In this document: piece by piece, positions 2,588-60,559 of the stretch
Position numbering within the stretch: the stretch's first letter is position 1
How the letters are laid out: each line of letters begins with the position of its first letter
IMG/VR virus record: IMGVR_UViG_3300020469_005303
Coordinates: 1 to 60,559 of that record
Length of the DNA: 60,559 nt
Reading direction: 5' to 3' (one strand)
Source: a virus
Program-made: the position numbers and the translations under genes
The notes under the pieces: generated by a model
Seen by the model: only the letters and a program-made list of their open reading frames with translations
Database searches by the model: none
What the model was told of the DNA's origin: nothing

Positions 2588-2588
2588 T

Positions 2589-3431: not shown

Positions 3432-3475
3432 ATAACGCAATCCTTTTAAAAATTAAATGCTATATAACCTTTTAT

Positions 3476-3485: not shown

Positions 3486-3498
3486 AAGTAATCTTATT

Positions 3499-4913: not shown

Positions 4914-5772
4914 TTATATTATATATATCGTCATTTATTCTTTTTTTGAACTTATTATATTCTAGGTTCATGGAACGATCACCACGTTGTCTAAAGTCTT
5001 TTATTTTTAATTGATCTCTGTTTTTGGAAATCAAATTACGATCTTCACATACAATATTGTTAGATAATGTAAATTGTTGCACCTTGATTTGTTTGCTTTT
5101 CATATAATCACAGCAATACATCATAAATGTGTCATCGTGGCCGTAGCCAACAAATGAGTCGGGTATACCTATGTATTTGGCAAGTTTGGCAGATATACAA
5201 GTAAACCAACCACCTGCCCATTTAAATTTATTACATTTTACTGATTTTGTTTCTAAATTATTTTCTTTTAAGATTTTATCTATGTCAATATTCTTATAAA
5301 ATCCTATTTTTTCTTTTTTATATTTTTTATTTACAATGACATCCCAAGTACTGTCCCATAATCTGACAACTTCAGGTGTAATTATGTAATACTCGTATTC
5401 ATTCTTTATGACTTGCAATTCTTTTAAAAAATTATTGGTTAAATTATCATTAAAGTGTATGTCTGTATCTAAAAAGAAAAGTGTATCCGAGAGGTCTGCA
5501 TCATTGATACACGTCCTGCGATGTTCGTTGACTCCAAAATATTTTGTTGTTATGTGATGTTTTATATTTCCACCATACTTACTTGATACTAAATTGAATT
5601 CGCTAATTTGATTTTCTAATTCGCAACTTTCTTTAATTACTTTTTTGTTTATATTAAGAACACTTTTAATCTCTACCTCATCGTTGTTTTTTAAAACACC
5701 CTCAAGTTTATAAATAATTCTTTTATATTCTTCAACTTCATGTGGAAATAAATGTATTGATATTATATTCAT
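4903..5772 (-). CDS. Glycosyltransferase, GT-A type
   Basis: The 289-residue protein has a GT-A layout. LFFLDTDIHF near residue 100 carries the metal-binding DxD. A later WAGGWFTCIS plus GYGHDDTFMMY resembles the acceptor/galactosyltransferase C-terminal motif (GxxxDD). The N-terminus (MNIISIHLFPHE) lacks a signal peptide, implying a cytoplasmic enzyme. Its ATG overlaps the stop of the large glycosyltransferase gene upstream (ATGA), showing coupling. Donor and acceptor are not identifiable. Confidence 0.75.
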   Translation of the reverse strand: MNIISIHLFPHEVEEYKRIIYKLEGVLKNNDEVEIKSVLNINKKVIKESCELENQISEFNLVSSKYGGNIKHHITTKYFGVNEHRRTCINDADLSDTLFFLDTDIHFNDNLTNNFLKELQVIKNEYEYYIITPEVVRLWDSTWDVIVNKKYKKEKIGFYKNIDIDKILKENNLETKSVKCNKFKWAGGWFTCISAKLAKYIGIPDSFVGYGHDDTFMMYCCDYMKSKQIKVQQFTLSNNIVCEDRNLISKNRDQLKIKDFRQRGDRSMNLEYNKFKKRINDDIYNINES

Positions 5773-8006: not shown

Positions 8007-8685
8007 CAAAGTCTTCCTCTGATTCTATTCCTGGATTATCAACGAAGTTTTTAATATCTGTAAGCATTTCATAAAATGCATCTAAACTACCAAATCTATC
8101 CATTATTAATTTTCTGAATCGTGCATTATTCAAATTTGTAATATCTTGTTTGAGAATCTTGTTTAATAAAAGTTTGCTTTGCTTTATTTCATTTAATGAT
8201 TCTGTTTTACCTATTACGGCTGCTTCGTGGGTAGTATTATCAAAAATTTTTAATTTTTTCCAATCCAACATATACAACTTTGGCTGTTTAATTTCATACA
8301 TCTTATAGGTCCTATAACAATCAAACTCTAATAAATTATTTTTTATATAATTAGAATAAAAAGTCCGTGGTCTATCGATTAGTTGTGAAAAAGGTCCTTT
8401 GAGTTCATATTTTCTTTTAATTAATGATAATGTGTCTTTAATTATTACTCTTTTTAGAAAAGCATACAACTTAGATTCTGGTATATGCTCAACGGTCAAT
8501 CCATGTACTAGCATATTTCCACCTTTATTAAATTTACCCAACACTAAAACCAGACGATTTATTTTCCGTCTTGAAGTTTCACTTCTATATCTAAATGAAA
8601 TAATATGACCAGGTTCGACTTTGGTTCTTGCAACTGAGGTATTTCCTCCGATAAGTCTTTGTAGGTATTTTGCATAATAACTCAT
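7990..8685 (-). CDS. Conserved phage protein of unknown function, 231 aa
   Basis: The N-terminus (VEPGHIISFRYRSET, then RLVLVLGKFNKGG) resembles a small family I associate with T4-like marine phages, in which a PGxIxxFxY start is followed by a PLVLVL strand and a histidine-proline segment. No enzymatic motif is seen. The C-terminal 100 residues are helical and charged, ending in acidic EEDFDAS. It lies upstream of the large glycosyltransferase with a 17-base overlap and begins at the ATG at 8683-8685. Family resemblance is from memory of sequence patterns and is only moderate evidence. Confidence 0.6.
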   Translation of the reverse strand: MSYYAKYLQRLIGGNTSVARTKVEPGHIISFRYRSETSRRKINRLVLVLGKFNKGGNMLVHGLTVEHIPESKLYAFLKRVIIKDTLSLIKRKYELKGPFSQLIDRPRTFYSNYIKNNLLEFDCYRTYKMYEIKQPKLYMLDWKKLKIFDNTTHEAAVIGKTESLNEIKQSKLLLNKILKQDITNLNNARFRKLIMDRFGSLDAFYEMLTDIKNFVDNPGIESEEDFDASKT

Positions 8686-8734
8686 AATATCACAAAATGT
8701 GTATATTATATATATTAATGCGTTTATGTTTACA

Positions 8735-9964
8735 TTATGTAGTTAGTGATTGGTCTTGTAAATTTTCCCAATCTGATATGGTTTTCTTTATTTGTTTAGC
8801 AATGTCATTGCACATTGTTTCGGTTTTAAAATTTTGAGCATCTATAAACTCAAGAAATTCATCCATTTGGATGTCGTTTGCCTTGTATACATCTAGTATC
8901 TTCTTGCTTACTACATTCGGGTCGGTGTAATCGGAATATATATAAGGTGTTTTTTGAGTTCCTTTTAGTACCTTGCAGTGTGGTTCTATTGCATACGTCC
9001 ACTTAGTGTTTATTTGATCAATGAGTCCGCCTGTTTTATTTACAATTATAGGTGTCTTTGTAGCAACTGATTCAAGTGTACATAAACCGAACCCTTCGTT
9101 TGACGAAATATTAATTGTACAATGAGATAAATTATACATATTATTTAATACTTTTTCACTTACGACTTCATTAGAAATTAAAACAGGCAACTCAGGATAT
9201 AAATCATCTAATATTTTATTTAAATTTATACCACGTGATGCCTCGGGATTAGTATGCATAAGCAATACAACATCTTCTTTTTCTTTCTTTTTTAATTTCC
9301 TATAAAACTTTTCAAAACTTATTATTGTATTTGAAATTTCTTTTCTTGCTATATTAGTTCCATTAAAAAACAAAACAAACTTGTAGTTTCTTCCCAAAAA
9401 TGCTTCTCTATTCTTTTTTATCAGTTCACTTTGTTGAGGAAAAAACATAGTAGTATCTACACCATGTGGAGTATAATAAACACTTTTATGATCTGGAACA
9501 ACATTTTTAACACATTCCTCGGTAAGTTTGCTGATACAACTTATAGTTTCACAATTTTCGTAGAAACTCTTCAAAAAAAATGGATAAGGTTTATTGTCCC
9601 ATACATGGTAGTAAAATATAGGACACTGAACACTTGATCGGTATGAACCAAGAATCCATTCAAATCTATGTGGGTCTGTCATTAAAAACAAACAATCACA
9701 TGACTCTTTTTCAATGATTTCACTCAATCTTTCAATTGAACCATATCCGTCTGTACCGTATATCTTAAAATACGCATTATCATTCTCTGTGATTTTTTGT
9801 ATTGTATCCGAAATATCTTCTTCTTTATCTTTTTCTAATCCTGCCGCCATCTGCACAATATCATAATGTCGTGACAAAAAAAGTGAAACGGGGCGTAATA
9901 TATTTGCAACACCAGTTGCTTGTCTTATATCATCTCCTATTATTAATATTTTTTTATTATGCAC
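8735..9964 (-). CDS. Glycosyltransferase family 4-like (GT-B)
   Basis: The 409-residue protein has a GT-B architecture. The N-terminal Rossmann strand is ILIIGDDIRQATGVAN, a linker carries YTPHGVDTTMF, and the C-terminal domain has FNGTNIARKE and the E-x7-E nucleotide-sugar motif (SSNEGFGLCTLE). These are typical of retaining GT4 enzymes. It starts with GTG at 9962-9964; no in-frame ATG lies upstream and no strong ribosome site is visible, so the start is less certain than the family. It is separated from the next minus-strand gene by 49 bases, so it may be a separate sub-operon. Confidence 0.85.
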   Translation of the reverse strand: MHNKKILIIGDDIRQATGVANILRPVSLFLSRHYDIVQMAAGLEKDKEEDISDTIQKITENDNAYFKIYGTDGYGSIERLSEIIEKESCDCLFLMTDPHRFEWILGSYRSSVQCPIFYYHVWDNKPYPFFLKSFYENCETISCISKLTEECVKNVVPDHKSVYYTPHGVDTTMFFPQQSELIKKNREAFLGRNYKFVLFFNGTNIARKEISNTIISFEKFYRKLKKKEKEDVVLLMHTNPEASRGINLNKILDDLYPELPVLISNEVVSEKVLNNMYNLSHCTINISSNEGFGLCTLESVATKTPIIVNKTGGLIDQINTKWTYAIEPHCKVLKGTQKTPYIYSDYTDPNVVSKKILDVYKANDIQMDEFLEFIDAQNFKTETMCNDIAKQIKKTISDWENLQDQSLTT

Positions 9965-44225: not shown

Positions 44226-47200
44226 GTGATAAAAGTATTGAAATTATCAAATAAATCGGTAACACGATTTAAAACTAATAAAAAATGGAATTACAGTACA
44301 TTAGATTCTGGTAGTAATATTGTTCTTGAACAAGGTGATAACATTCCATTGTTTTCATCATCTATAAATAAATTGTCAACAGAACAAAATAATTCAGAAT
44401 TTAAATTGAATTTGCGTGTCGGAAAAAAAGTAACAGGCACATTTTTTTCCAAAGATAGTAAATACTTTAATGCAGAGAAAGAACCTCTTAATTATGACGG
44501 ATCATACCAACGAGTCGTATACAACAGCATCAAGCATTTATTCTATAACGACTATGGAACAGTCGGAGATATAGAAAATGATTCGTATTACAAAAATCCG
44601 ATAAATATTTTCGGTAGTGAGACCGGAATATATTCTCCTCAAAATTTCAGTTCAAAAACACTAGAAGTAGACAAACGAAGTGAACGAAGAGTAATGTCAG
44701 ATGAAGTAACTGTTTTGGAAATTCCAGCTAATGTATTTGGAGAAAAAATAAAACCTGGTACATTAAAAATAATAGATCACAGTTCTGAATTCGAGTCAAT
44801 AGAGATTGTTGATGACGGAAACACTAATTTAATAGTAGGTACGAATTCATTCAATAACATTTCAGAATTAAACTTAAATTCTTTTTTTAATTCAATATCA
44901 GAAACATCCTCTGTTGATCAAAAGATAAATATTGATTACACAGATTTGTCGTATGGATATGAAGTAGATTCACACGGAGATTTTTTACTTTCAGGTGCAC
45001 CTACATTATCGACATCAATTTCGGAAAATCAATCAGGCCGTGCATCTTTACATAAATTCAATCCAATTTCAAAAAAACATGAATTAGTAAAAAACTTTTA
45101 TTGTCCATTTACACAAAATGGACTTGCACACGAAAATAGAAACGATAATTGTCAATTTATAATTACAGAACTTGAAGATGTAATTTCAACAGAGAATTTT
45201 TTAGTTAATGACGATTTCGGAAAATCTGTTTCAATAAATGAGTCAATATGTGCAATAGGTTCACCTAAATCTCATATCAACGGCAGAAATAATGATCAAC
45301 CCACTGGTCATATATTTATTTACGAAAAAAATAAAGGTGGTAAAGAAAATTGGGGAATAATTAATGTTTTTGAAGGAACACCAGATTCAGACTTTGGAGA
45401 ATCTATATCAACCGATGGTGACTTTATAGCAGTAGGTTCTCCTAATTTTGAAAATGGAGTAGGATGTGTTTATGTATTTAAAAAAACAAAAAGAACAAAA
45501 GAACATCCGTGGATTAAAACTTCGTCTGTTTATGATTCTTATCAGTGGAATGATGTGCTATCAAAATACGAAGGAACTCCAACTCAAGATACAGAAGAGT
45601 ATTCTAAATATTTAAAAGACAGAGATGGAATTATTTCCAGGAGAATTTCAAAGACGATAAAAGAGTTAAAAAAACTTCTAAACACAGGTGTGATTTCTGA
45701 CATTGAGTATATAAATGCTATACCGACCAAGGATGATTACAGCGAAGTTTATCCTTACAATTATCTGTACACAGACAATGTAGAAGAGTGTGAAGATAAA
45801 AGTAATTGGTATAATCAAAAAATTTGGAGCAAAAATACACACCCGGCAACGAGATGTAAATTCGCAGAAGATGAAAAGCATTACAAGAAATCTAGTTGGC
45901 CTGGATATATGACTGATGAAAAAACAGATTTATATATACCAAATCCGGCACATGAACAAAATAAAGATAATAAATGGGCTTATAGATGGAAACTGCAAAA
46001 TGTAGTTGGAAATGCGGAGGATATTAACCTATTTGGTGACAATGATGATTGTGAATTAGATAACCTGTCTATGTTTTCCAATTCAAATTTAAATTCGTTT
46101 GGAGATGATAGTGGGTTTCCACTCACAGAGTACTCAGAAACGCCGAAAGAATCAATAGGTGATACAACTTATGATTTAATTGGTACTATTAAATCACCTG
46201 ATTTGAGTTCTAAGCGTTTTGGAGAGAAGGTGGTAATAAAAGGAAACAAATTGTATGCTTCAACCCACACAACAGATTTTCCTAGATGTTATATGTTTGT
46301 TAAAACAACAAATGAACACGGTTGCGAAGTATGGGAATTAAAAAATACAATATCAGAAACAGAATTGATAGGTCATACAAATAATTCAATGATAGACGAG
46401 AGTGTATTACACTCGGTAGAATTAAATCATTATGATACCTATTTTGATATTAAAATATGTCCATCCGTTTCGTCCACATCAGACTCAACAGGAATCCCTA
46501 CATTCAATAAATGGATTTATAGTTTTGATCAACCAATATTAAGTTCGGAAAATAAAATACTAGGAGGTACGCGGGTCGATGCGTGTGATTCTATTTGTAA
46601 AGATTATAATTCCTACAAATACTATTCAAGATTTTCTAAAATAAAAGAAAAGCAGGCTGCACAAATTCCTGCCAACTATGGTGAGCAAATAAACTTACCA
46701 ATGTTAAATGACAAAGCGAAGTTTTTTAGCAAGGCGGAATTTGCAGACTCTTTTTACCATCCTTCTGACAATTCCATTGGCATTTCTTGGAAAAATGCAA
46801 GAGAAAATGTATCGTTTGCGTATACTAATGTTACACCTGGTAACTTTCCCAATTTCATGACAATTTATTCAAATGAAGCAAAGCAATCTGACGGAACGTA
46901 TGATCCATTACATACATTAATAGAAATAGGAGGACACGAAACCTTAAATAACCAACTTGTTAGATTGATAATTGACAGTGAACGTGGGAACACAGAGCAT
47001 TTTTATGAATTTATTTATCGTGGTTCAATAGAGGGAACACATTATACACTAAATGAACTTAAAGAAAAAATTGAATACGAATGCACACTTCCACCAAATA
47101 AAGGAGTATACACCACGATAGCAAACGAATTATTTATAGACGGTTTAGGAAACAAACAAAACGCAAAATTATTTTCTAAAGGTGAAAATGACCTTCAATA

Positions 47201-50200
47201 TTCAGAACCTTGGAGTGAAGAAAACACGATGAAGTTATCGTGGAAAAACTTTAGAGAAGATGTCTCATTTTCTTATCCAATGGTAAAAAGAGGAAAAGAT
47301 ATTTCTATAATGAGAATTTATTCAAATGAAGCCAAGAATTTAGATGGTTCGTATAATGCTCTGAATATTATAGCAGAAGTTCATGCGAATGAGACTTTAA
47401 ATAATTCAAAAGTAAGACTGACATTAAATACTGGATTTGTAAACGGTGATGAATACTATTATGAATTTTTGTATCGTGGTTCAAAAAATGGTAAAAATTA
47501 TACATTAAATGAATTAAAAGAATCATACGATTATGATTGCACTCTACCACCAAATCAAGGCGAATATGTAGAGATACCTTCTGAAAAATTTATAGACCCT
47601 TTAAATTACACAACTTCGGCCAAATTATATTACAAGAGTGAAGATACACATTCTTATATTGAACCTTGGAGTGAAGACGATGCCATAGGGTTGTCATGGA
47701 AAAATTTCAGAGAAAATGTATCATTTTCATATCCTTCTGTAAAACGAGGAAGACTACCTTCTTTTATGGCAATTTATGCAAATGAAGCAAAACAAGATGA
47801 CGGTACATTTGATCCTAGATACATATTAGCAGAAATAGGAGCACAAGAAACATTAAATGGGGAAACTGTAAGACTTACTTTTAACACGGGTTTTGTTGGT
47901 GGAGATGAATATTTTTATGAATTTATTTATCGTGGGTCAATTGAAGGTACGCATTATACTCTGAATGAACTTAAGAATTTAATAGATAAAGATTATGCAG
48001 AAACCACTACCAATTCCGGACTAATACGTTATATTAAAGACTACGAAAATCTTAATATATTTAAGAAATGTAGATTGCCAAAATTTTATTCGAAAAAAGA
48101 AAACCAACTTTCCTATGTAGAGCCTTATTCTTCTGATGAAACGCAGGCAATATCGTGGAAAAACTTTAGAGAAAATGTCTCATTTTCATATCCTCAAATT
48201 GCATCTGGTTCTGAACCAAGTTTTATGACAATATATTCAAACGGTGCCAAGAGAATAGATGGATCTTATGACCCAATTTTTACACTTGCAGAGATTGGTG
48301 CATCTGACGCACTAAATGGAAAGTTAGTAAAACTTTTAATTTATGCAGACAATTGTAAGAATGATAAAACACAAGTATACGAATTTTTGTATAAAGGTTC
48401 AATAGAAGGTACTCATTTTACATTGAGTGAATTGAGAAATAAGTACGATTATGAATGTACTCTACCACCAAACTTGGGTATACCAGTCTTATTAAATAAA
48501 ATCAATGAAAATGCCGAAGAAGATAATCTACTATTCAGTAAAGCAGATGGAGGACTATCATATACAGAACCATATTCATCTGATGATGCTATTGCATTGT
48601 CATGGAAAAATTTCAGAGAAAATGTATCATTTTCGTATCCATCCGTAAAACGAGGAAATCATCCGTGTTTCATGGCAATTTATTCAAATGAAGCAAAGCA
48701 AACTGATGGAACATATGATCCTTCACATATATTAGCAGAAATAGGAGCACAAGAAACATTAAACGGAGAAACAGTAAGACTTACTTTTAATACAGGTTTT
48801 GTTGGAGGGGATGAATACTTTTATGAGTTTATTTATCGTGGATCAATTGAAGGCACACATTATACTTTGAATGAACTGAAAAATTTTATAGAATTTGATT
48901 GTACATTACCTCCAAACATGGGTGGTTTTGTATCATTATCTGATAAAGAATTTCTTGATCCACTGGATAACAAATTAAATGCCAAGTTTTTCTCAAAAGG
49001 AGAAGGTGGTCTTTCATATTCAGAACCTTGGTTTGGTGATGATATAATTAATATTTCGTGGAAAAATATTAGAGAGAATGTATCGTTTTCTTATCCATCC
49101 GTAAAAAAAGGTACATCACCAAACACTATGGCCATTTATGCAAATGAAGCAAAACAAGATGATGGAACATATGATCCTTTATACACACTTGCCGAAATAG
49201 GAGCACAAGAAACATTAAACGGAGAAACCGTAAGACTTACTTTTAATACGGGTTTTGTTGGAGGAGACGAATACTTTTATGAGTTTATTTACCACGGTTC
49301 ACTTCAAGGCACACATTATACAATAAATGAATTAAAAGAAACAATTGACTATGAGTGCATACTATCACCAAATCAAGGAGAGTATGTATCTTTATCAAAA
49401 ATAAATTTTGATGATTATTTATTAAATTCAGACAAAGCAAAGTTTTTTACGAAAATAAAAAATCAAGCTGCATTTAAACAAAACGAGAATAAAGATGAAG
49501 TGTCAATAAGTTGGAAGAACTTCAGAGAAAATGTTTCGTTTTCTTATCCAAGTGTAAAATCAGGTGTAGAACCAAGTTTTATGACGATATATGCAAACGG
49601 TGCGAAAAACAAAAAAGGTGATTATGATCCAATAAAAACACTAGCAGAAATTGGTGCAGAAGATACTTTAAATGGAAACGTGGTCAAATTAACATTTAAC
49701 CAAGGTTCAGTAAATGATGATGAATTCTTTTATGAATTTATTTACGATGGAAGTTTAGCGGGTACACACTACACACTTAATGAGCTTATGGAAAATAACT
49801 TATTGAAAAAAGTTGAGTCAACCACGCACATACAAAAAAGTAAATCTAATATAAACAATAGATTTTATGTTGAAAACTTAAATAGTATACAAATAGAAAC
49901 ATTACAAAAAAAATACACAAACTATCTAACAAGTAATGTAAATTCAAAAATCAAAAAAATTAAATCATTCGGTGAATTACCAGCAAATAGTGGTCATGAA
50001 GAAATAGTAAGAATACAGATAGATGATGATATATTACAATCGCAAAATCAAATAAAATTTTATAGTCAAAACAATTATTCTGCACATTCTGAAAATAGTA
50101 ATCTCGAAAACGAAATTGAAATTCATTGGAAATATTTCAGAGAGGGGGTGAGTTTTTACTATCCATCTATAAGAAAAAACGATACAAATGAAACTAATTC

Positions 50201-53200
50201 ATGTATGCGTTTATACATGGATCATGATAATAAAAATGGTTACGATAAAAATAAAATTATTGCTGAGATAAAGACAAGTAGTTCACTGAATGGAGAGATT
50301 GTGCGATTGAATTTAGTATCAAATACTAATAAAGAAATTTTTTATGAATTTTTATTTGACGGTACGAGTATTGGAACAGAGTATACTCTAAGTGAACTAA
50401 GTGAAAAGGTTTCTCCTAATTTGTCAAAACCACTAATAATTAACTCACCTGACTTAGAAAATTGTAAAATAAGAATTGATAAAGATAAAATATCTAACGG
50501 ATTACATAAACTTTATATATTACTAATTGATTCTGACAACCAACCAATAGGTACAGAGTCAATGATAGAAATGTATAATAATCCAATTGTATACAATCTA
50601 GAACCTAGACGAAATTTAGTCAAAAAGTCTTATACATATTCCGCAAATACAAAATCCGAATTCGGTAAAGGGATAGGTGCATCAGATAAATATTTTGTAG
50701 TAGGAAATCCATCTGATCGTAAATATTATGTAGACCAAACAACTTCATATACTGCCGGAAGTGCGTTCGTTTTTCGTGTAAATGAAACTAACTTGGATTT
50801 TCTTGAAAAGATATACGGAGAGGATACATCAGAAAATAATTTTAGCTCTGCATTTGGTAATGATGTCTCTGTACTTGGAAGTAATTTTTTGGTAGGAAGT
50901 CATTCAAAAGAAATGACAACTATTAATTTAAATGAAAGTGGAAATGCAAAAAAACTTGATATTGAAGATTTAGAATTTGGAGCAACCAAGTACGCAGATG
51001 AAATTTACCATACAAATGAAGCTCTTATTACCGATTATGAAATTGATCTAAATAGTAAAATAGGTGATGCGGTTGTCAAAGTAAAAATAGACGATTTAAA
51101 TATCAATAGGTTATTGATAAATGAAATGACACTTAAAGCAAACTTTATTGATACTGGTAATGAAACACTCAGAGTACATGGTGTGACAGGAGAAAACACA
51201 GAAGATATTAATGGAATATACAGACTAGTCAAATCCCCAATTAATATTGACTTTGGGTGTGATATTGATACTAATTTACAAACAAGAGTTTATATAAATA
51301 AAAATAATTGGTCTGTATTTTATGACAAATTACGCACTTGTTGGGTTTTAACAGACAAACCAAATATATCTGTTGAATATGAAATACCTTGTAATTGGAA
51401 TTCTGTTTTGGAAACATTTGAAAGAATAAATTTAATCAGTGAATTTAATCTTTTGACAGAGGAAATGTTAACAAGTGCGATCCAATTGTATAATGTAAGC
51501 AATCAAGATATAATAAGTAAGTGGAAATTATTAACTCAAACTAAAATACCAACGATATCTGTAAGTTATGCTAATTTAATAAGAGAACTTGAGTCAATAA
51601 GTAAACTAAAATTAAATCCACAATTGATTGAAGAAATATTTTATTTATACAGCTCAAATTCAAGAAAAAGAATATCTACAAGTATTTTGAAAAGATGGAA
51701 AGATTCGGAAAGCAACTTAGGTATGCTACCTTTTATATACGAACTTGATTCTGTAAATCCAATTTCATTAAACTTTAGTTTACTTGTAAAAACATTGGAT
51801 ATATATAAACTTAAAGATTACGAAATATTAAAATCATGGTCAGTCAAACTTGGGTATAATCACCTGTTGGGAGACTTGCTAAGAGAAATTAGACCTTCAT
51901 ATCATGATAGGTTATCTATATATAATTTACGATTGTTGACAAAAATTGCAACTGATTTTATAAGTCAACGTAAATACAGTACGATAACGACACAAACTGA
52001 TGACTGTCCAGAGGTAGAAAATTTTATTTTGACAGAAGAAGAACTAGGTCAATATGGAAAAAAGTGGAAACCTAATGTTGATCGTGGGTTTTTATTAAGT
52101 GATGTATTCAAGGATATAAATAAAAATGTGAATATTAATTTTGCAATTTCAAACGAGACATCGGATGAAGATATGCCAAGAAGTTTTATGTCTGGTGTTG
52201 GGTTGCTCGAAGACAAAGATATCAAAATTAATTCAAATAACGATACAATAGGAGAGCATTCTTCACTTACATGGGGAATCTATCGTGACAAAACAGAAAT
52301 AGTAGGAAATTATATACATTTTTACGTAAATATTCTACCTGATGTAGAATTGGATAGTACATTGGTTTTTGTATACAATTCAATTAAATCAGCAATCAAC
52401 GGATATGTGTATTATTATTCTATTAATAATGATACGAATAAATGTAGAAAAATCAAGAGAATGAAAACAAATAAAACAAAATATTCTTGTAAAAAGCAAT
52501 ATGGTCATTCTGTAAGTTTAAGCAAGAATTTTATTTCAGTTGGTTCTCCTGTACTTGGTAACTTCAACATTGATGAAATATCTACGTTCGGAGGACGTTC
52601 GGTTGTTTCGTTTGGAGATTCTGAAAAGCTATTTATTGAATATAATGTCATACCACCGACTCTCATAAACGATTTCAGTAAAAAAATAGTTGGGTCTATA
52701 ATTTCGTATGACCATGCAGCCATATTAGATAATAAAAGTCAATTTATAGGTAATGTATTTTATAAGAACGGTGTTATTGCTCTAACAGATAGAACTGGTT
52801 ATTTTTCCGAGTTGTTAAGTAATAGTGGAACATCAGGATTTGAGTTAGAATTTAAATCAATGCATACTTTATATGAAAACGAAATACTATGTAAAGTTGA
52901 ACCACATGAATTTAACTTTAGTACCAATCCTACATCTGTTCAATCGGGACAAATTTCATACGATATAAATCAAGATGGTAAATTTGACATAATTGATGCG
53001 TCCTACATATTTAAATACATAATGGGTGAGGTAGGTGATATAGAAATTACAGATGATGAAATAATTGAAAATGAAACATCAATAAAATTGTCTGCAAAAA
53101 ATAAATGGCCCAAACAAGACTTATTAATGACAGAATCTGAAGATGTATTGTTAATGGATTTATTTTTTAATTCAGATATAATTGAAAATCGACCAACACA

Positions 53201-53624
53201 TGAAAAAGTTATTTCAAATTTAAAACAAAAATATGAGAATGGAGAGTTCGATATAAATGGTGACGGAAAAACCGATGAAGTTGATGCAAATTTATTATTA
53301 AGATACTTCGTGGGAAGACGAGGTACATATTTAACAAGAGACTTAGTTAGTAAATATGATAATTCAACACGAAGTGATGCAAATACGATAATTAAATTTT
53401 TAGATGAAAAAACAGGTAAGAATTTAGGAAGAGAAATATTAAAAGATTTTCAAGACTTTTCTGAAAATGACAAACAAGATTCTACTGGAAGTTATCTTGC
53501 TCCTTATGCAACAACAATTGGATTATATAGTGGATTAGAACTTGCAATGGTTGCAAAATTAGGGAAGCCTGTTAAAATACTTCCAAACTATCCTATAAAC
53601 TTTTTAATAAAATTTGATAATTAA
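44226..53624 (+). CDS. Giant modular adhesin, 3132 aa
   Basis: The start is GTG at 44226. Domains in order: FG-GAP/integrin-like beta-propeller repeats (about 243-425 and 660-710, for example DFGESISTDGDFIAVGSP); eight SWKNFRE modules (about 822-2064); further FG-GAP-like repeats (about 2137-2235 and 2756-2790); an ANGxY-like module (about 2316-2392); two dockerin-like calcium loops (D2913-D2924 and D3009-D3020); and a C-terminal TTIGLY/VAKLGKP motif shared with the 472-residue protein. It is probably a long calcium-stabilised tail adhesin that recognises surface glycans or proteins. The architecture is visible; the ligand is unknown. Confidence 0.75.
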   Translation: MIKVLKLSNKSVTRFKTNKKWNYSTLDSGSNIVLEQGDNIPLFSSSINKLSTEQNNSEFKLNLRVGKKVTGTFFSKDSKYFNAEKEPLNYDGSYQRVVYNSIKHLFYNDYGTVGDIENDSYYKNPINIFGSETGIYSPQNFSSKTLEVDKRSERRVMSDEVTVLEIPANVFGEKIKPGTLKIIDHSSEFESIEIVDDGNTNLIVGTNSFNNISELNLNSFFNSISETSSVDQKINIDYTDLSYGYEVDSHGDFLLSGAPTLSTSISENQSGRASLHKFNPISKKHELVKNFYCPFTQNGLAHENRNDNCQFIITELEDVISTENFLVNDDFGKSVSINESICAIGSPKSHINGRNNDQPTGHIFIYEKNKGGKENWGIINVFEGTPDSDFGESISTDGDFIAVGSPNFENGVGCVYVFKKTKRTKEHPWIKTSSVYDSYQWNDVLSKYEGTPTQDTEEYSKYLKDRDGIISRRISKTIKELKKLLNTGVISDIEYINAIPTKDDYSEVYPYNYLYTDNVEECEDKSNWYNQKIWSKNTHPATRCKFAEDEKHYKKSSWPGYMTDEKTDLYIPNPAHEQNKDNKWAYRWKLQNVVGNAEDINLFGDNDDCELDNLSMFSNSNLNSFGDDSGFPLTEYSETPKESIGDTTYDLIGTIKSPDLSSKRFGEKVVIKGNKLYASTHTTDFPRCYMFVKTTNEHGCEVWELKNTISETELIGHTNNSMIDESVLHSVELNHYDTYFDIKICPSVSSTSDSTGIPTFNKWIYSFDQPILSSENKILGGTRVDACDSICKDYNSYKYYSRFSKIKEKQAAQIPANYGEQINLPMLNDKAKFFSKAEFADSFYHPSDNSIGISWKNARENVSFAYTNVTPGNFPNFMTIYSNEAKQSDGTYDPLHTLIEIGGHETLNNQLVRLIIDSERGNTEHFYEFIYRGSIEGTHYTLNELKEKIEYECTLPPNKGVYTTIANELFIDGLGNKQNAKLFSKGENDLQYSEPWSEENTMKLSWKNFREDVSFSYPMVKRGKDISIMRIYSNEAKNLDGSYNALNIIAEVHANETLNNSKVRLTLNTGFVNGDEYYYEFLYRGSKNGKNYTLNELKESYDYDCTLPPNQGEYVEIPSEKFIDPLNYTTSAKLYYKSEDTHSYIEPWSEDDAIGLSWKNFRENVSFSYPSVKRGRLPSFMAIYANEAKQDDGTFDPRYILAEIGAQETLNGETVRLTFNTGFVGGDEYFYEFIYRGSIEGTHYTLNELKNLIDKDYAETTTNSGLIRYIKDYENLNIFKKCRLPKFYSKKENQLSYVEPYSSDETQAISWKNFRENVSFSYPQIASGSEPSFMTIYSNGAKRIDGSYDPIFTLAEIGASDALNGKLVKLLIYADNCKNDKTQVYEFLYKGSIEGTHFTLSELRNKYDYECTLPPNLGIPVLLNKINENAEEDNLLFSKADGGLSYTEPYSSDDAIALSWKNFRENVSFSYPSVKRGNHPCFMAIYSNEAKQTDGTYDPSHILAEIGAQETLNGETVRLTFNTGFVGGDEYFYEFIYRGSIEGTHYTLNELKNFIEFDCTLPPNMGGFVSLSDKEFLDPLDNKLNAKFFSKGEGGLSYSEPWFGDDIINISWKNIRENVSFSYPSVKKGTSPNTMAIYANEAKQDDGTYDPLYTLAEIGAQETLNGETVRLTFNTGFVGGDEYFYEFIYHGSLQGTHYTINELKETIDYECILSPNQGEYVSLSKINFDDYLLNSDKAKFFTKIKNQAAFKQNENKDEVSISWKNFRENVSFSYPSVKSGVEPSFMTIYANGAKNKKGDYDPIKTLAEIGAEDTLNGNVVKLTFNQGSVNDDEFFYEFIYDGSLAGTHYTLNELMENNLLKKVESTTHIQKSKSNINNRFYVENLNSIQIETLQKKYTNYLTSNVNSKIKKIKSFGELPANSGHEEIVRIQIDDDILQSQNQIKFYSQNNYSAHSENSNLENEIEIHWKYFREGVSFYYPSIRKNDTNETNSCMRLYMDHDNKNGYDKNKIIAEIKTSSSLNGEIVRLNLVSNTNKEIFYEFLFDGTSIGTEYTLSELSEKVSPNLSKPLIINSPDLENCKIRIDKDKISNGLHKLYILLIDSDNQPIGTESMIEMYNNPIVYNLEPRRNLVKKSYTYSANTKSEFGKGIGASDKYFVVGNPSDRKYYVDQTTSYTAGSAFVFRVNETNLDFLEKIYGEDTSENNFSSAFGNDVSVLGSNFLVGSHSKEMTTINLNESGNAKKLDIEDLEFGATKYADEIYHTNEALITDYEIDLNSKIGDAVVKVKIDDLNINRLLINEMTLKANFIDTGNETLRVHGVTGENTEDINGIYRLVKSPINIDFGCDIDTNLQTRVYINKNNWSVFYDKLRTCWVLTDKPNISVEYEIPCNWNSVLETFERINLISEFNLLTEEMLTSAIQLYNVSNQDIISKWKLLTQTKIPTISVSYANLIRELESISKLKLNPQLIEEIFYLYSSNSRKRISTSILKRWKDSESNLGMLPFIYELDSVNPISLNFSLLVKTLDIYKLKDYEILKSWSVKLGYNHLLGDLLREIRPSYHDRLSIYNLRLLTKIATDFISQRKYSTITTQTDDCPEVENFILTEEELGQYGKKWKPNVDRGFLLSDVFKDINKNVNINFAISNETSDEDMPRSFMSGVGLLEDKDIKINSNNDTIGEHSSLTWGIYRDKTEIVGNYIHFYVNILPDVELDSTLVFVYNSIKSAINGYVYYYSINNDTNKCRKIKRMKTNKTKYSCKKQYGHSVSLSKNFISVGSPVLGNFNIDEISTFGGRSVVSFGDSEKLFIEYNVIPPTLINDFSKKIVGSIISYDHAAILDNKSQFIGNVFYKNGVIALTDRTGYFSELLSNSGTSGFELEFKSMHTLYENEILCKVEPHEFNFSTNPTSVQSGQISYDINQDGKFDIIDASYIFKYIMGEVGDIEITDDEIIENETSIKLSAKNKWPKQDLLMTESEDVLLMDLFFNSDIIENRPTHEKVISNLKQKYENGEFDINGDGKTDEVDANLLLRYFVGRRGTYLTRDLVSKYDNSTRSDANTIIKFLDEKTGKNLGREILKDFQDFSENDKQDSTGSYLAPYATTIGLYSGLELAMVAKLGKPVKILPNYPINFLIKFDN
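46690..50420 (+). repeat. Eight-copy SWKNFRE module array
   Basis: Eight units of about 140-205 residues (boundaries near 46690, 47101, 47561, 48020, 48479, 48923, 49379 and 49994). Core elements are SWKNFRENVSFSYP, FMTIYANEAK, DPxxTLAEIGA, TLNGETVRLTFN and YEFIYRGSIEGTHYTLNELK. Most units end in YECTLPPNxG, which joins them. Units 3 and 5 share about 50 identical residues but differ at roughly fourteen silent positions. Confidence 0.92.
52962..53285 (+). other. Dockerin-like calcium-binding pair
   Basis: Two loops, DINQDGKFDIID (residues 2913-2924) and DINGDGKTDEVD (3009-3020), each followed by a hydrophobic helix and a glycine (FKYIMGE, LRYFVGR). They match the DxNxDGxxDxxD calcium loop of type I dockerins. 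The spacing of 96 residues is longer than the usual 30-35, so they may be two half-dockerins or generic calcium loops. Confidence 0.7.
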
Positions 53625-54289: not shown

Positions 54290-54820
54290 ATGCAAAATAA
54301 ATCCTATTGTTTAGGATTAGATATCAGTTCTACGGTTGTTGGTTATTGTTATTCTTCTTCTAAAAATAAAGTAAGTCACGCAGGATATATAGATATTCGT
54401 AAAGAAATCAGTATCAAGCAAAAAGCACATAATGTTGCTGAAATACTAGATAAACTAGAAATAGAACCTTCGATAATTATAGTTGAAGATACATTAAGTG
54501 GTTTTGGTGGAGGAAGAACCAGTCAGCAAACTATTGTTAAGTTAGCAAAGTGCAATGCAGTAATAAGTTATGTAATAGAAGCATTGTATGAATTAGATGT
54601 AGAACACGTGAATGTTTCATCTCTTCGTAAGGCTGTATTCGGAAAAAGTCGTGAACAAGGAGTTGATAGTAAAACATTTGTACGTGAACAACTTGAGAAA
54701 AAGATTGATTTAAGTAAATTTATCGTCTATAATAGTAGAAAAAATTATGATAAAAGAAACTACGATATGTTGGACGCAACGGTAGCATCATTATATCATT
54801 GGCATACTATTGACAATTAA
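54290..54820 (+). CDS. RuvC-like Holliday-junction resolvase
   Basis: The 176-residue protein has the RNase H-like resolvase layout. D11 lies in GLDISSTVVGY, E66 and D67 in IIIVEDTLSG, and D159 and D162 in YDMLDATVAS. These supply the four acidic metal ligands. It probably resolves branched DNA before packaging, the role endonuclease VII plays in T4. AGG is found close to the ATG. Its stop overlaps the primase start by one base. Confidence 0.85.
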   Translation: MQNKSYCLGLDISSTVVGYCYSSSKNKVSHAGYIDIRKEISIKQKAHNVAEILDKLEIEPSIIIVEDTLSGFGGGRTSQQTIVKLAKCNAVISYVIEALYELDVEHVNVSSLRKAVFGKSREQGVDSKTFVREQLEKKIDLSKFIVYNSRKNYDKRNYDMLDATVASLYHWHTIDN

Positions 54821-55746
54821 TGGGGATTTCCGAACAAAAACTATATGCTTTATTACAAAAAGTGTTAGGTGAAGGTAAAATCGTCTCTAAGGACGAAGCA
54901 ATGTTTGTGTGTCCGTTTTCTCATCACCATAAACCAAAGTTGGCAGTAAACCTCACAACACAACGGTGGCAAAGTTGGATTGATACAAACGCAAAAGGAC
55001 GTAGTATTTTTGCGTTATTCAAAAGAATACAAGTTCCAAGCAATTATTTTGCGGAGTTGTCTAAAATCGTTAAACTTCCAAAAAACACTAAACTCGCAGA
55101 CACCGAAGAGCAATTTGTATCATTACCTTATGAATTTAAAAGATTGACTGAAACACATACTGACTTTTCTTATTCTAAAGCAATGAAGTATTTAAAAAAT
55201 CGTGGAATTCAATCATATGATATTGAACGATATGATATAGGATATTGCGATAAAGGAGATTATGCAGGTCGTATTATTGTTCCATCGTTCGATGTAGACA
55301 ATAAATTAAATTACTTTCTTGCAAGAGATTTTACAGGAACTGCGTATTTGAAGTATAAGAATCCACCTGTAAGCAAAGATGTTGTAGTATTTGAAAACCA
55401 AATAGATTTTTCTGAACCATTGATTTTATGCGAAGGGGTATTTGATGCAATAGCAATTCGCAGAAATGCAATTGCTTTGCTTGGAAAAAATATTCCAAGC
55501 AAACTCAAACTACGTTTAATAGAACATGGTGTAAAAGAAGTTAGCATTGTATTAGATAATGATGCGTATAAAAATGCACTATACATATCAGAAACTTTAA
55601 TGAACGATAATATAAAAGTAAAATTAATCAGAATGGGAAATGAAGACGCTGCCGATTTAGGATTTAACAAAATTATTCATAGAATCAAAGAAACCAGTTT
55701 TCTTGATTTTAGTGAATTAATGAATCAAAAGTTATGCATGAATTAA
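54820..55746 (+). CDS. TOPRIM DNA primase, gp61-like
   Basis: The 308-residue protein has an N-terminal putative zinc motif (FVCPFSHHHKPKLAV) and a TOPRIM domain with LILCEGVFDAIAI (catalytic Glu) and VLDNDAYKN (DxD-type), followed by an AADLG end segment. Together these are the signature of DnaG/gp61-type primases that lay RNA primers for lagging-strand synthesis. No helicase domain is fused, as in T4. The start overlaps the resolvase stop and the end overlaps the nuclease start by 13 bases, so this is one operon. Confidence 0.85.
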   Translation: MGISEQKLYALLQKVLGEGKIVSKDEAMFVCPFSHHHKPKLAVNLTTQRWQSWIDTNAKGRSIFALFKRIQVPSNYFAELSKIVKLPKNTKLADTEEQFVSLPYEFKRLTETHTDFSYSKAMKYLKNRGIQSYDIERYDIGYCDKGDYAGRIIVPSFDVDNKLNYFLARDFTGTAYLKYKNPPVSKDVVVFENQIDFSEPLILCEGVFDAIAIRRNAIALLGKNIPSKLKLRLIEHGVKEVSIVLDNDAYKNALYISETLMNDNIKVKLIRMGNEDAADLGFNKIIHRIKETSFLDFSELMNQKLCMN

Positions 55747-56438
55747 AATCAAGTTTAAAAAATGTTGAGAAGGTGTATCATCTTGCTGATATACATATTC
55801 GTAATGTAAAACGACACACCGAGTATTCTTTGGTATTTGAAAATTTTTACAAACAAGTTAAAAATGATAATCTTGATAATGCAATTATTTTTATTGGTGG
55901 GGATATCGCTCATGCTAAAACAGAAATGAGTCCCGAGTTAATAAAACAAATTTCTTCGTTTCTTAGAGAATGCTCAAAGTTACACCCAACTATCGTTATA
56001 GCAGGTAACCACGATTGTAATTTAAATAATCCTGATCGTCTGGATGTATTGTCACCTATCATGGATATGATGGATGATGATAATTTATTTTATTTAAAAG
56101 ATACAGGAATATATAAATTGGGTGATGTTGCTATTGGTGTGTTTGGAATATTTGAAGAACCGTCTGAGTATATCCACGGAGATAAAATAGATGATACCGA
56201 AATAAAAACCAAGATAGCAGTTTACCACGGAGCAGTCAGACGAAGTATGACTGACATAGGATATATAGTCGTGGGTGGAGATGTAAGTTTACCACAATTT
56301 GATGGATATGATATTGTAATGCTAGGAGACATCCATAAGTACCAAGTACTTCAGGAATATAAAACAGAACATCGTTTTGTTCCAGAAAGCAAAGTTGATT
56401 CGTATAAATTAGACGGTTGGGATGTTTGTGATGAATAG
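55734..56438 (+). CDS. gp47: SbcD/gp47-like phosphoesterase, N-terminal part
   Basis: The 234-residue protein has all calcineurin-type metal motifs: LADIH (19-21), GGDIAH (around 55-60), GNHD (91-94), YHGAV (His164) and GDIH (197-200). It stops soon after, at residue 234, without the conserved strand (YSGSMIQQNHGE) that usually follows; that strand is found instead at the start of the ORF at 57296. Between them lies a glycosyltransferase gene. The nuclease is therefore split, and both parts may still assemble. Its stop overlaps the glycosyltransferase start. Confidence 0.85.
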   Translation: MHELKSSLKNVEKVYHLADIHIRNVKRHTEYSLVFENFYKQVKNDNLDNAIIFIGGDIAHAKTEMSPELIKQISSFLRECSKLHPTIVIAGNHDCNLNNPDRLDVLSPIMDMMDDDNLFYLKDTGIYKLGDVAIGVFGIFEEPSEYIHGDKIDDTEIKTKIAVYHGAVRRSMTDIGYIVVGGDVSLPQFDGYDIVMLGDIHKYQVLQEYKTEHRFVPESKVDSYKLDGWDVCDE

Positions 56439-57306
56439 ATTTTTAATAAAATGCGAAGACATTGATATTGGTGATGTTTTATTTGCAAGTAGTGTTGCAA
56501 AAAAAATAAAGCAGGAAAATCCTCCATGTGAAGTTAATTTTAATATAAATTATTTGCAACCACTTGAATTACTTAACAACAACCCGTATATTGATTATGC
56601 TTACTTTAAAGATAGTAAAGGTGAATATACAAAAACTTATACAATAAACAAAAGTAGTCATGATTTAAATTTATCCACATCGGTGGTTTCTCAGTACCAA
56701 CAAATGTGTGAAATCAAAAGTTTCAATGATACCTTTGAAATTTTTACAAATCCCATAAGTGATTATTCTATTGAATGTAGTATGAAAGAGTTAGTGGAAA
56801 TAGACTATTGGAAATCTGATATGATTAAAATATGCTATGTGATGGATTGGGATCGAAAACGTTATATCTTAAATAATTCAACTGACCAATCAAATAGTAG
56901 AAATGCTCATTCAATAACAGAACAACTTAGAGGAAATCGTGATATAATGTTGTTTGCAATTGGAATCGAGTCAAAAGAATCTAAAAACTTTCCTAGCATA
57001 AATTCGTCAAATAAATTTAGTTTCACGGCCAGTTTAATAAAAAATTCAGATTATGTAATTGGACCCGAAGGTTGTTTAACTAACTTATCATCAGCACTTG
57101 GAATCAAAACAATAATAACGACCGATTACATTCATTATACATACGGTACCGATGGAACGAAAACTGACAAAGAAAAAAAATATACAGAACCATTTTTAGG
57201 TCCTTTAAAATATTTTCCAAATTCAGGTCACATTCATCTTGATCCCTATTTAAATGATCATGAAGTGGGAAGCGAAATTTTAAAAATTGTCACACATGGA
57301 AGATAA
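56422..57306 (+). CDS. GT9/heptosyltransferase-like glycosyltransferase inserted in the gp47/46 locus
   Basis: The 294-residue protein begins MNRFLIKCEDIDIGDVLFASSVAKKI and carries DYVIGPEGCLTNLSSALGIKTI. This is the order and spacing of GT9 heptosyltransferases (GDxLLAxP at the start, then a G-PDxGxMHLAAALG-like loop). It overlaps the phosphoesterase by 17 bases and the SbcC-containing ORF by 11, so it is fully embedded. The start is ATG at 56422 or 56431. It is out of place functionally; transfer or domain capture are possibilities. Family call is moderate. Confidence 0.65.
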   Translation: MFVMNRFLIKCEDIDIGDVLFASSVAKKIKQENPPCEVNFNINYLQPLELLNNNPYIDYAYFKDSKGEYTKTYTINKSSHDLNLSTSVVSQYQQMCEIKSFNDTFEIFTNPISDYSIECSMKELVEIDYWKSDMIKICYVMDWDRKRYILNNSTDQSNSRNAHSITEQLRGNRDIMLFAIGIESKESKNFPSINSSNKFSFTASLIKNSDYVIGPEGCLTNLSSALGIKTIITTDYIHYTYGTDGTKTDKEKKYTEPFLGPLKYFPNSGHIHLDPYLNDHEVGSEILKIVTHGR

Positions 57307-59896
57307 AGAAAATTACGTAAAAATAAAAAGACACAACAAGAATAAACCTGTTGTAGTTTATTCTGGTAGTATGATTCAGCAGAATCATGGAGAAAAACCA
57401 ATAGGTCATGGTTATGTTTTGTGGGACTTACCTTCAAAGAAACACATTCATCACGAAGTTCATAATGATTATGGTTATTACACGATTGAAGTTCGTGATG
57501 GAAAATGTGTAAGTGATCTTGATAAACTTCCCAACAAAGCAAGGTTGAGAGTCAAGGTATACAATACAACTGCAACTGAGACTAAAGAAATAATTGCAGA
57601 CATTCGTCAACGAACAAGTATAAGTGACTTGAATGTTACAAGATGCGATGCAATATCTGAGGCAAAAAAATATGATCGAGATAACAAATTTGATTTTGGT
57701 GATATATCACAGGTGCAAGTTCAAAATGAACTGATTGAAGATTATCTTCGTAGAAACTTCGTTGTAGACGATGATCAAGTTCAAACTGCACTTGATATTA
57801 ATAAAGAAGTAAATGATAAACTGATTGTAAAAGAAGTTCTTAGAAATTGCATTTGGAAACCAAAGAAGTTTGAATTTGGCAATATGTTTAGCTACGGAGA
57901 TGCAAATGTAATCGATTTTACTAATATGAAAAGTGTTATGGGGTTGTTTGCTTCAAATGCAAGTGGTAAAAGTAGTGTAATGAGTGCATTAAGTTTTTGT
58001 TTATTTGACAAATGCGATAGAGCATTTAAAGCAGCCCATGTACTTAATACACAAACAGAATCTTTTTACTGCAAAATAAATTTTGAAATCTCAGGAGTGA
58101 ACTACTATATAGATAGAACTGCAACTACTAAAAAGAATGGTGATGTAACTGTCGTTGTTGACTTTTGGAAGTTAGATGAAGATGGTCAACAAGTATCTTT
58201 AAATGGTGAACAACGAGCGGGAACAAATGCTTCTATTCGTGATCATGTTGGTTCATATGATGATTTTGTTTTAACCACACTTAGTCTACAAAATAATAAT
58301 GCTATTTTTATAGATAAAAGTCAAAGTGAACGAAAAGATTTACTTGCACAATTTATGGGCATTGATACATTTGATCAATTGCACACAACTGCATCTGAAG
58401 ATATCAAAGAAATTAATGCACTATTAAAAAGATTTAATCGTGAAGACTTTGATGAAACTTTAGCTGATGTTCAATCAAAACTTGAAGAAACAAATAAAAA
58501 ATATACTCAACAAGATAGTATAACGAATTTGGCATTGCTTGAGCAAAAGAAATTTAACAAACAACTTGCAGATAAAAACTCTCAATTTAAAAATTGTTCC
58601 TTCGATGAAACTTCGGTCAATATAGATGAACTTGAGTTTAACAAAAAGAATTTAAAAGAAAGATTGATTGTAGCAAAAGAAAATAGAGAAGAAGAATCAC
58701 ACAGAAAACAAAAATTAACAACAGTCAGAAAAGAAAAAGTTTCGGACTTAGTCAAGTTGGATGGTGTTGACGAAAAGTATGTTAAAGTTCTAAAAATTCG
58801 TGAGGATATAAATTTGGTTGATAAAGACTTAGCAGTTTTGCGTACATCTGTGAATGCTAAACTAGATAAACTAAAACACTACGATAGTCACGAATATGAT
58901 CCCAAATGTAAATTTTGCGTGAACAATTCAAAAAATCTAATAGAAAGTGCTGAACAAACTAAAGAAGAATTAGATAAAGATAAAGCAGCGGCGGATAAAC
59001 TTGTAACTCAGAAAAACGAGTTATCTAAAATATTAGATGAGTATAAAAATGTTGAATCCGAATATGAACTGCACGGTAACTTAAAAAACGAAACAACACA
59101 ACTTACATATGAAATAAACGAAGCAGACTCGAAAGTACTTGCGTTATCAAGCATGATAGAATCATTAGAAAAAGATATCGTTATCAACAATAAAACTATT
59201 GAAGAGTATTATGAGTGCAAAGACATCATTGAGTTTAATAAAAAACTGCAAATTGAAGTTAATGCTATTGAAAATAAACTACTTGGTATAAATGAATCTG
59301 CAAATACCGAAACTGAAAAACTACAAACTTTATTTGGTGAAGTAAAAATTGTTGAAAAAGAATATGAAGATGTAATTGCGTCAATAGAAGAAGCAAAAGG
59401 ATATGAACGAAAAAAACGAGGATACGAGTTGTATCTTGATGCGGTTAAACGTGATGGTATTTCATATGAACTTATTTCCAAAACGATACCAAGTATTGAA
59501 AGTGAAGTTAATAATATTCTTTCTCAGATTGTTGACTTCGGAATGCAATTAGAAATGGACGGAAAGCATATCTATTCAAAGATTACATATGAAGACAGAC
59601 ATTGGCCATTAGAAATGTGCAGTGGAATGGAACGTTTCATTAGCAGTATCGCAATGCGAGTAGCACTTATTAATGTAAGCAGTCTTCCTCGGTCTAATTT
59701 CCTCGTTATTGACGAAGGATGGGGTTCATTAGATGGAGACAACATAAGTAGTGTATTTAATCTGTTTACCTATTTAAAAGGGCAGTTTGAGTTCATAATG
59801 GTTATAAGTCATTTGGATGTAATGCGTGATATGGTGGACGAGATTATAGAAATTCAAAAAGAAGGTTCTTTTAGTAAGATAAAATACGGAGCATAA
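57296..59896 (+). CDS. gp46: gp47 C-terminal part fused to SbcC/gp46-like ATPase
   Basis: The 866-residue protein opens with the missing SbcD strand (YSGSMIQQNHGE at 22-33) and a capping-type region to about residue 180. It then becomes a Rad50/SbcC ATPase: Walker A ASNASGKSS (about 219-227), a long coiled coil with a CKFC zinc hook at 538-541, an SGME signature, and Walker B FLVIDEGWGSLD near 801. SbcC-type ATPases tether DNA ends for resection with the phosphoesterase. The ATG at 57296 is preferred over a TTG three codons earlier. Fusion of the gp47 tail to gp46 is visible directly. Confidence 0.85.
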   Translation: MEDKENYVKIKRHNKNKPVVVYSGSMIQQNHGEKPIGHGYVLWDLPSKKHIHHEVHNDYGYYTIEVRDGKCVSDLDKLPNKARLRVKVYNTTATETKEIIADIRQRTSISDLNVTRCDAISEAKKYDRDNKFDFGDISQVQVQNELIEDYLRRNFVVDDDQVQTALDINKEVNDKLIVKEVLRNCIWKPKKFEFGNMFSYGDANVIDFTNMKSVMGLFASNASGKSSVMSALSFCLFDKCDRAFKAAHVLNTQTESFYCKINFEISGVNYYIDRTATTKKNGDVTVVVDFWKLDEDGQQVSLNGEQRAGTNASIRDHVGSYDDFVLTTLSLQNNNAIFIDKSQSERKDLLAQFMGIDTFDQLHTTASEDIKEINALLKRFNREDFDETLADVQSKLEETNKKYTQQDSITNLALLEQKKFNKQLADKNSQFKNCSFDETSVNIDELEFNKKNLKERLIVAKENREEESHRKQKLTTVRKEKVSDLVKLDGVDEKYVKVLKIREDINLVDKDLAVLRTSVNAKLDKLKHYDSHEYDPKCKFCVNNSKNLIESAEQTKEELDKDKAAADKLVTQKNELSKILDEYKNVESEYELHGNLKNETTQLTYEINEADSKVLALSSMIESLEKDIVINNKTIEEYYECKDIIEFNKKLQIEVNAIENKLLGINESANTETEKLQTLFGEVKIVEKEYEDVIASIEEAKGYERKKRGYELYLDAVKRDGISYELISKTIPSIESEVNNILSQIVDFGMQLEMDGKHIYSKITYEDRHWPLEMCSGMERFISSIAMRVALINVSSLPRSNFLVIDEGWGSLDGDNISSVFNLFTYLKGQFEFIMVISHLDVMRDMVDEIIEIQKEGSFSKIKYGA

Positions 59897-59939: not shown

Positions 59940-60559
59940 ATGGAAAATTCCGAAAAAAATCAAGAAGTTCAAGAAACCCTTATAAAAGCAGGATTACGTA
60001 AGGGATACTTTACACTTGTAGAGGGTGTATATGATCCTGGTATTTTAAAAGCCGTATTTCTTGCAGGAGGACCAGGATCAGGCAAATCAGCAACTGTTAA
60101 TACTTTGTTTGATTTAGCTCCTCCTACTAAAAACCTTTCACCAAGTGGATTGAAGGTGGTGAATAGTGATCCTGCGTTTGAAATACTTCTTAAAAAAGCG
60201 GGATACGATTTAAATCTTGCTAAAATGGATGATGAAACTTTTCAAAAAGTAACAAGTGATGATCCAAATAGTATACGTTCTCGGGCAAAAAAAATAATGC
60301 TTAAACAATTTGAGTTATTCAAAGAAGGACGACTTGGAGTCATTGTTGACGGGACGGGTGATGATTACAATAAAATATCAAAACAGAAGAAGGCTTTAGA
60401 AAAACTTGGTTATGATTGTTATATGGTATTTGTAAATACATCACTTGACGTTGCTCAACAAAGAAACGCATCACGTGAACGAAAATTAAAACGATCATTA
60501 GTTAAAAATATTTGGACAGATGTTCAAAAAAATCTTGGAGCATTTCAAAATACATTCGG
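59940..60559 (+). CDS. P-loop kinase/zeta-toxin-like ATPase (partial)
   Basis: The visible 206 residues start at ATG 59940. They contain a Walker A motif FLAGGPGSGKSATV, a nucleic-acid/kinase-type VDGTGDDYNKI segment, and RNASRERKL. This is similar to small phage kinases resembling zeta toxins or polynucleotide kinases. The C-terminus is beyond the window edge. Substrate is unclear. It follows the recombination operon but has its own promoter-like motif, so it may belong to the next block. Confidence 0.75.
   Translation, partial: MENSEKNQEVQETLIKAGLRKGYFTLVEGVYDPGILKAVFLAGGPGSGKSATVNTLFDLAPPTKNLSPSGLKVVNSDPAFEILLKKAGYDLNLAKMDDETFQKVTSDDPNSIRSRAKKIMLKQFELFKEGRLGVIVDGTGDDYNKISKQKKALEKLGYDCYMVFVNTSLDVAQQRNASRERKLKRSLVKNIWTDVQKNLGAFQNTF

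Follow-up and report, generated by a model that had tools for sequence, protein, structure and literature searches.

A viral SbcD-SbcC fusion gene broken within its phosphoesterase domain, with a GT9-fold gene in the gap

Introduction

A 60,559-nucleotide stretch of viral DNA (IMG/VR record IMGVR_UViG_3300020469_005303, positions 1 to 60,559; the whole stretch is called the window here) raises an unusual question: how did a glycosyltransferase-like gene come to lie between two parts of an SbcD-SbcC (Mre11-Rad50) nuclease, and what has become of an enzyme whose catalytic domain is divided between two proteins? An initial annotation of the window, made from its sequence, proposed that a fused nuclease-ATPase gene had been cut in two by gene insertion, leaving a nuclease made from two chains. 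We find that the arrangement is the fission of one SbcD-SbcC fusion gene and that, within this family of aquatic phages, the same loop has been broken independently at least twice, possibly three times.

Results

A fusion gene divided between two reading frames

Three overlapping open reading frames (ORFs) on the plus strand make up the locus, at the positions that the initial annotation gave. ORF A (55734-56438, 234 residues) encodes the N-terminal part of an Mre11/SbcD phosphoesterase, as judged from Pfam, PHROG, sequence motifs, and the ratio of nonsynonymous to synonymous substitution rates (dN/dS). ORF B (57296-59896, 866 residues) encodes, by PHROG and motifs, the last phosphoesterase strand, the capping region, and a complete SbcC/Rad50 ATPase with its zinc hook. 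Between them, ORF G (56431-57306, 291 residues) encodes a GT9 (heptosyltransferase-like) protein of GT-B fold, as seen in an AlphaFold2 (AF2) model compared by Foldseek and VIA. As the initial annotation had recognized, one phosphoesterase domain is spread over A and B; no single chain holds it intact.

We collected relatives by searches with A, B, and G and with profiles, and removed identical sequences. Among the full-length distinct relatives, A and B form one protein in 161 and are split in 31. The uninterrupted proteins are mostly 1044-1080 residues long; in Microcystis phage Mel-JY01 the fused gene is annotated as one coding sequence and translates to 1066 residues, and the deep outgroup LR756501 (L003), a 735-kb phage, is also fused. 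These uninterrupted gp47-46 fusions occupy the same gene neighbourhood and run across the junction without a break, so that the proposal of a fused gene cut in two is borne out by both the relatives and the outgroup. The loop from GDIHK to YxGS, where the break lies, spans 10-20 residues in nearly all fused genes; the exception is the L177 group (L177, positions 4257-7565, with L193, L194, and L198), whose SbcDC fusions are continuous but have 50 residues in the very loop that is broken elsewhere.

SbcDC fusions have been described in Mimivirus (R555), Bacillus phage 0305phi8-36, and marine viral metagenomes, and they are abundant in aquatic viruses (PMC3175470); these have the uninterrupted parental form, with neither split nor insert. 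Since it is the uninterrupted form that was already known, we take the split form to be derived. The opposite polarity, with the split ancestral and the uninterrupted genes arising as later fusions, has in its favour that cells and T4 as a rule encode SbcD and SbcC in separate genes. The canonical gene boundary, however, falls after the capping domain and not within the phosphoesterase; moreover, fused genes are found in the deep outgroup and in most lineages, one group of split genes (the L081 group, described below) is nested within fused forms, and the extra residues found at the break are absent from fused forms. We therefore regard an ancestral split as very unlikely.

Two contigs, L402 and L404, binned as Nitrosopelagicus and Pelagibacteraceae among archaeal and Pelagibacter metagenome-assembled genomes, also carry SbcDC genes of this viral family; these are probably misbinned viral contigs or hints of a host.

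Fixed overlaps at both junctions

We see the arrangement A-G-B again in some 30 distinct relatives, drawn from many different metagenomes. The stop of A and the start of G overlap by 8 nucleotides (56431-56438, ATGAATAG), a length that did not vary among the relatives examined, while the stop of G and the start of B overlap by 11 nucleotides in the window (57296-57306) and by 8, 11, or 14 in relatives. This agrees with the earlier observation that a GT9-like gene fills the gap and overlaps both neighbours. An assembly or frameshift artefact is ruled out by the many independent contigs with fixed overlaps. The earliest possible ATG of G lies at 56422 (ORF 56422-57306), and an in-frame TTG lies upstream of B at 57287; the ATG codons at 56431 and 57296 are the likely starts of G and B because relatives share these codons.

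Brief overlaps of this kind might also be expected if A, G, and B were joined after transcription or translation, through an intron, an intein, or a programmed frameshift, to give a full-length nuclease. Several findings speak against such joining. G is conserved as a protein of 290-315 residues under its own selection, and the two halves of one relative, L112, lie 52 bp apart. A search of positions 55600-57600 gave no Rfam match at E-values up to 1, and no intein family appears among the Pfam matches of A, G, and B; split-intein halves are far longer than the tails at these junctions (18-31 residues). We consider joining of this sort to be extremely improbable.

The two halves keep their motifs and are under selection

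ORF A matches Pfam Metallophos (PF00149, E = 1.1e-7) and the SbcD-like PHROG 100 (E = 9.3e-14), and it carries all of the phosphoesterase metal motifs I-V (ADIH, GGD, GNHD, YHG, and GDIH), which are invariant across split and fused forms in the family alignment. The fifth motif (56325-56336) reads GDIH instead of GHxH, with aspartate in place of the usual histidine ligand; this variant is common to the whole family, split and fused, and so was not caused by the split. The initial annotation had A ending just after its last metal motif; all of the metal motifs are indeed in A, but about 25 extra residues follow the last one (KTEHRFVPESKVDSYKLDGWDVCDE, 56361-56435), and these are absent from uninterrupted relatives.

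ORF B matches the SbcC-like PHROG 77 (E = 1.4e-42). As had been noted, it carries the missing strand of the phosphoesterase core (YSGSMIQQNHGE, 57359-57394), which in all uninterrupted relatives comes next after the last metal motif, and continues as an SbcC ATPase with Walker A, the CxxC zinc hook (CKFC), the signature motif, Walker B, and the H-loop. Both hook cysteines are invariant in the family alignment and the ATPase motifs are conserved. A profile of the family aligns 'GDIH...YxGS' on 'GHIH...YPGS' of Thermotoga SbcD/Mre11, with a short loop between. The AF2 model of the continuous relative L177 has the nuclease and capping fold (Z = 25.5 against SbcD 7dog and Z = 24 against E. coli SbcD); for the window itself, this fold is assigned by homology.

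Both halves are under purifying selection, with median pairwise dN/dS in the window group of 0.108 for A and 0.098 for B, compared with 0.215 for G. Together with the intact motifs, this supports the reading of A and B as probably a two-chain nuclease; of the nuclease made from two chains proposed earlier, the selection on both halves and the intact motifs are what we observe, and the joint activity is what they suggest. Given that the break falls inside the core of the catalytic domain, the split could instead have ended nuclease activity and left the two proteins to act apart: B might, for instance, bridge DNA as an ATPase, and A might serve as a free phosphoesterase or a structural component. 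Invariant metal motifs in split and fused forms alike argue against this, as do the dN/dS of A (about 0.11), which is similar to that of B, and the retention in B of the capping region and the YxGS strand. A loss of nuclease activity thus seems unlikely.

The insert has a glycosyltransferase fold

The AF2 model of G (predicted local distance difference test, pLDDT, 78) has a GT-B fold over its whole length. Its top structural matches by both Foldseek and VIA are GT9 heptosyltransferases: 3tov (Foldseek E = 2.2e-8, VIA Z = 17.2), followed in VIA by WaaF (1psw, Z = 15.8) and by WaaC and TibC (Z = 14-15). Thus G shares the GT-B fold with these enzymes at Z of 14-17, and its N-terminal IGD, invariant among G homologues, aligns with the GD of GT9; in contrast, sequence identity is 10-13%, G is below Pfam detection, and the C-terminal donor motif is altered. 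None of the 26 G members searched matches PF01075 (Glyco_transf_9) at E-values up to 0.5. The usual GT9 donor motif is approximately D-T-G-x-x-H. On the donor side the G group has GxEGCxTN, which is EGCLTN in the window.

A tblastn search of 50,697 phage records for G elsewhere in phages gave no match. Other GT9-family genes do occur elsewhere in related genomes, none of them close to G. Mean G+C content in the group is similar for A (32.8%), G (31.9%), and B (32.4%); composition thus lends no support to the idea, which we considered and set aside, of G as a recent foreign arrival.

A glycan gene cluster occupies positions 1008-9964 of the window on the minus strand, with a sulfotransferase-like gene, a UDP-glucose/GDP-mannose dehydrogenase, and GT2 and GT4 glycosyltransferases. 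The initial annotation had called a glycosyltransferase an unexpected cargo for a recombination locus; it is unusual in this slot, but with a sugar-nucleotide dehydrogenase, two further glycosyltransferases, and the sulfotransferase-like gene in the window, it is at home in this phage.

One loop, three states, and more than one break

The split genes show three states of the same slot. G sits in the slot at all 37 loci found by a search with G, which form the window group. The L081 group (L081 and L111-L115) is split with no insert; most of its members have an ATGA overlap, and the 52-bp spacing of L112 is found here. The third state is that of LR756508 (L001), a 484-kb phage, where a 305-residue ORF lies in the same loop and overlaps the end of A. 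The N-terminal part of this 305-residue protein is cysteine-rich and its C-terminal part is a TnsA-like PD-(D/E)xK domain (PF08722, E = 5.8e-6) with PDFF and EVK motifs; similar domains are also found in phage endonucleases and in the head-closure protein gp4. We read the protein as a putative free-standing homing-type endonuclease. The protein was not found in 15 other records. Near the split SbcDC locus of LR756508, positions 7291-8589 encode a protein with a C-terminal Hint/intein-splicing-like domain.

The loci are orthologous, as indicated by shared upstream neighbours: a RuvC-like resolvase (54290-54820, plus strand, directly 5' of the primase ORF) and a DNA primase (54820-55746, plus strand, the last ORF before A) precede the N-terminal half in the window, and both also precede it in L081 and LR756508.

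We built trees without the junction region and compared topologies by the approximately unbiased (AU) test. The split forms need three changes on these trees. The test rejects a topology that unites every split form in a single clade (p = 4.9e-5 and 7e-43), and likewise a clade of the window group with L081 (p = 1.6e-69) and one of L081 with LR756508 (p = 1e-76). It does not reject a common origin for the window group and LR756508 (p = 0.155). It is from these results that we count at least two, and possibly three, separate breaks.

That the same loop is filled by an endonuclease-like gene in LR756508 and empty in the L081 group bears on how the gene was cut. Of the original proposal of cutting by gene insertion, the part that stands is that a gene sits in the cut; the glycosyltransferase need not have made the cut itself, and it may be a later tenant of the slot.

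Extra residues flank the break

N-terminal halves end in about 25-35 residues, and C-terminal halves begin with about 9-18, that are absent from fused proteins; in the window, the head of B (MEDKENYVKIKRHNKNKP, 57296-57349) is peculiar to the split form in alignments with uninterrupted relatives. These tails evolve faster than the core yet are conserved, with pairwise identities of 66-68% compared with 82-87%.

A hidden Markov model (HMM) of the L081-group tail finds the LR756508 tail at E = 1.3e-6, the next ORF scoring 0.41 among the 1781 ORFs of the loci compared. The two loci therefore have related tails despite their firm separation on the core tree. Most simply, the invading element either brought the tail in or shaped it. 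A search for the same tail in cultured phages matched LR756508 itself and no other. When the LR756508 tail is used in a single-sequence search, many window-group tails rank high with non-significant E-values.

The long loop of L177 is predicted by AF2 (pLDDT 88.5) to form strand-helix-strand-strand leading into the YxGS strand. By eye, the pattern of the split tails is compatible with this layout; homology in sequence between the L177 in-frame loop and the split tails was not detected (hhalign E = 0.03-0.7), and so what they have in common is a predicted layout. We advance, as a rather doubtful speculation, that the A tail and the B head each supply one half of a small module (beta-alpha-beta plus beta), a portable protein-complementation clamp that travels with, or is left by, a homing-type element entering this exact loop of viral SbcDC genes. 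Such a clamp would let a phage split the nuclease without losing it and make the gap a docking slot for any cargo gene, and the L177 group would carry the module in unbroken form with the same predicted layout. Any clamping of the two halves by the tails is itself a hypothesis.

How the locus may have arisen

We think the following scheme, taken as a whole, quite probable. The ancestor had one SbcD-SbcC fusion gene. In the window lineage this gene was interrupted within the short GDIHK-YxGS loop, and the interruption was retained. A homing-type endonuclease gene probably made the first opening, by comparison with LR756508, and the GT9-family gene would either have replaced the endonuclease or entered separately. 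Chain A would supply the metal ligands, and chain B would contribute the ATPase together with the capping region and the core strand that A lacks. Most likely the two chains associate non-covalently, aided by the A tail and the B head, and form a single functional recombination nuclease. Translation of A, G, and B is probably coupled, as one unit. G presumably glycosylates something unrelated to recombination and would be kept for its own function.

Three observations weigh against this scheme. Neither an endonuclease nor a remnant of one was seen in the window's own group, so that the first cutter in this lineage is proposed by analogy. A profile of the window-group tails has no significant match to the LR756508 or L081 tails (HMM E > 0.6). 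The altered donor motif makes the activity of G uncertain, and its donor sugar or its activity may differ.

The first two observations would fit an alternative in which the GT9 gene was inserted directly by illegitimate recombination and was itself what cut the gene; there would have been no endonuclease in the window lineage, and similar tails would be convergent loop extensions. The presence of GT9-family genes elsewhere in related phages also favours direct insertion. On the other hand, LR756508, with its endonuclease-like insert, has the same loop, the same style of overlap (8-11 nucleotides), and the same tail layout, and its single origin with the window group survives the AU test. We hold direct insertion to be possible but the less likely course, and retain opening by a homing-type endonuclease as the preferred one.

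Discussion

Gene splitting by mobile endonucleases in phages has so far been known for few genes. A close likeness is NrdA of Aeromonas phage Aeh1, which is split by mobE and still functions as two chains (PMC2988022, PMC3653736). There, as here, an inserted gene divides the gene of a phage enzyme (an essential one in Aeh1) into two ORFs; Aeh1 has no intron or intein, and no sign of either was seen in the window's locus. The Aeh1 insert, however, is a homing endonuclease, whereas the window has a GT9-fold gene inside an Mre11-Rad50 fusion whose two-chain activity we infer. The T4 topoisomerase is split by mobA, and gene 43 is split (43A/43B) in Aeromonas phages 25 and 44RR; 43A and 43B co-purify and are active (PMC2988022). 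In these cases too a large replication or recombination gene is fragmented by or beside a mobile endonuclease, and gene 43 of 44RR, with only an untranslated spacer, resembles the empty L081 group; the genes are different, and their slots hold no metabolic cargo gene.

Two marks of such 'genes-in-pieces', uninterrupted homologues and selection on both halves, are present in the window; a third, a homing-endonuclease insert, is absent. The literature searched contained no work joining SbcD, homing endonucleases, and splitting. Split SbcDC extends the phage 'genes-in-pieces' to another host gene, with an occupant that is unusual and breaks that recur at a single loop. Because the states of the slot (endonuclease-like gene, empty, metabolic cargo gene) coexist in nature, the life cycle of a fission site becomes readable. 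It also becomes testable how a metallo-nuclease cut through its catalytic core would be rebuilt from two chains, and the junctions offer natural split sites for engineering Mre11-type nucleases.

Other features of the window

Directly 3' of B, positions 59940-60557 encode a Zeta-toxin/AAA_33-like P-loop kinase that is cut by the end of the window. Positions 44226-53624 encode a 3132-residue protein of structural type with seven repeats of about 150 residues, which carry an SWKNFRENVSF-like motif at residues 854-1762, as well as FG-GAP repeats and two dockerin-like calcium motifs, DINQDGKFDIID and DINGDGKTDEVD (Dockerin_1, E = 9e-8). L081 encodes a similar protein in the same place.

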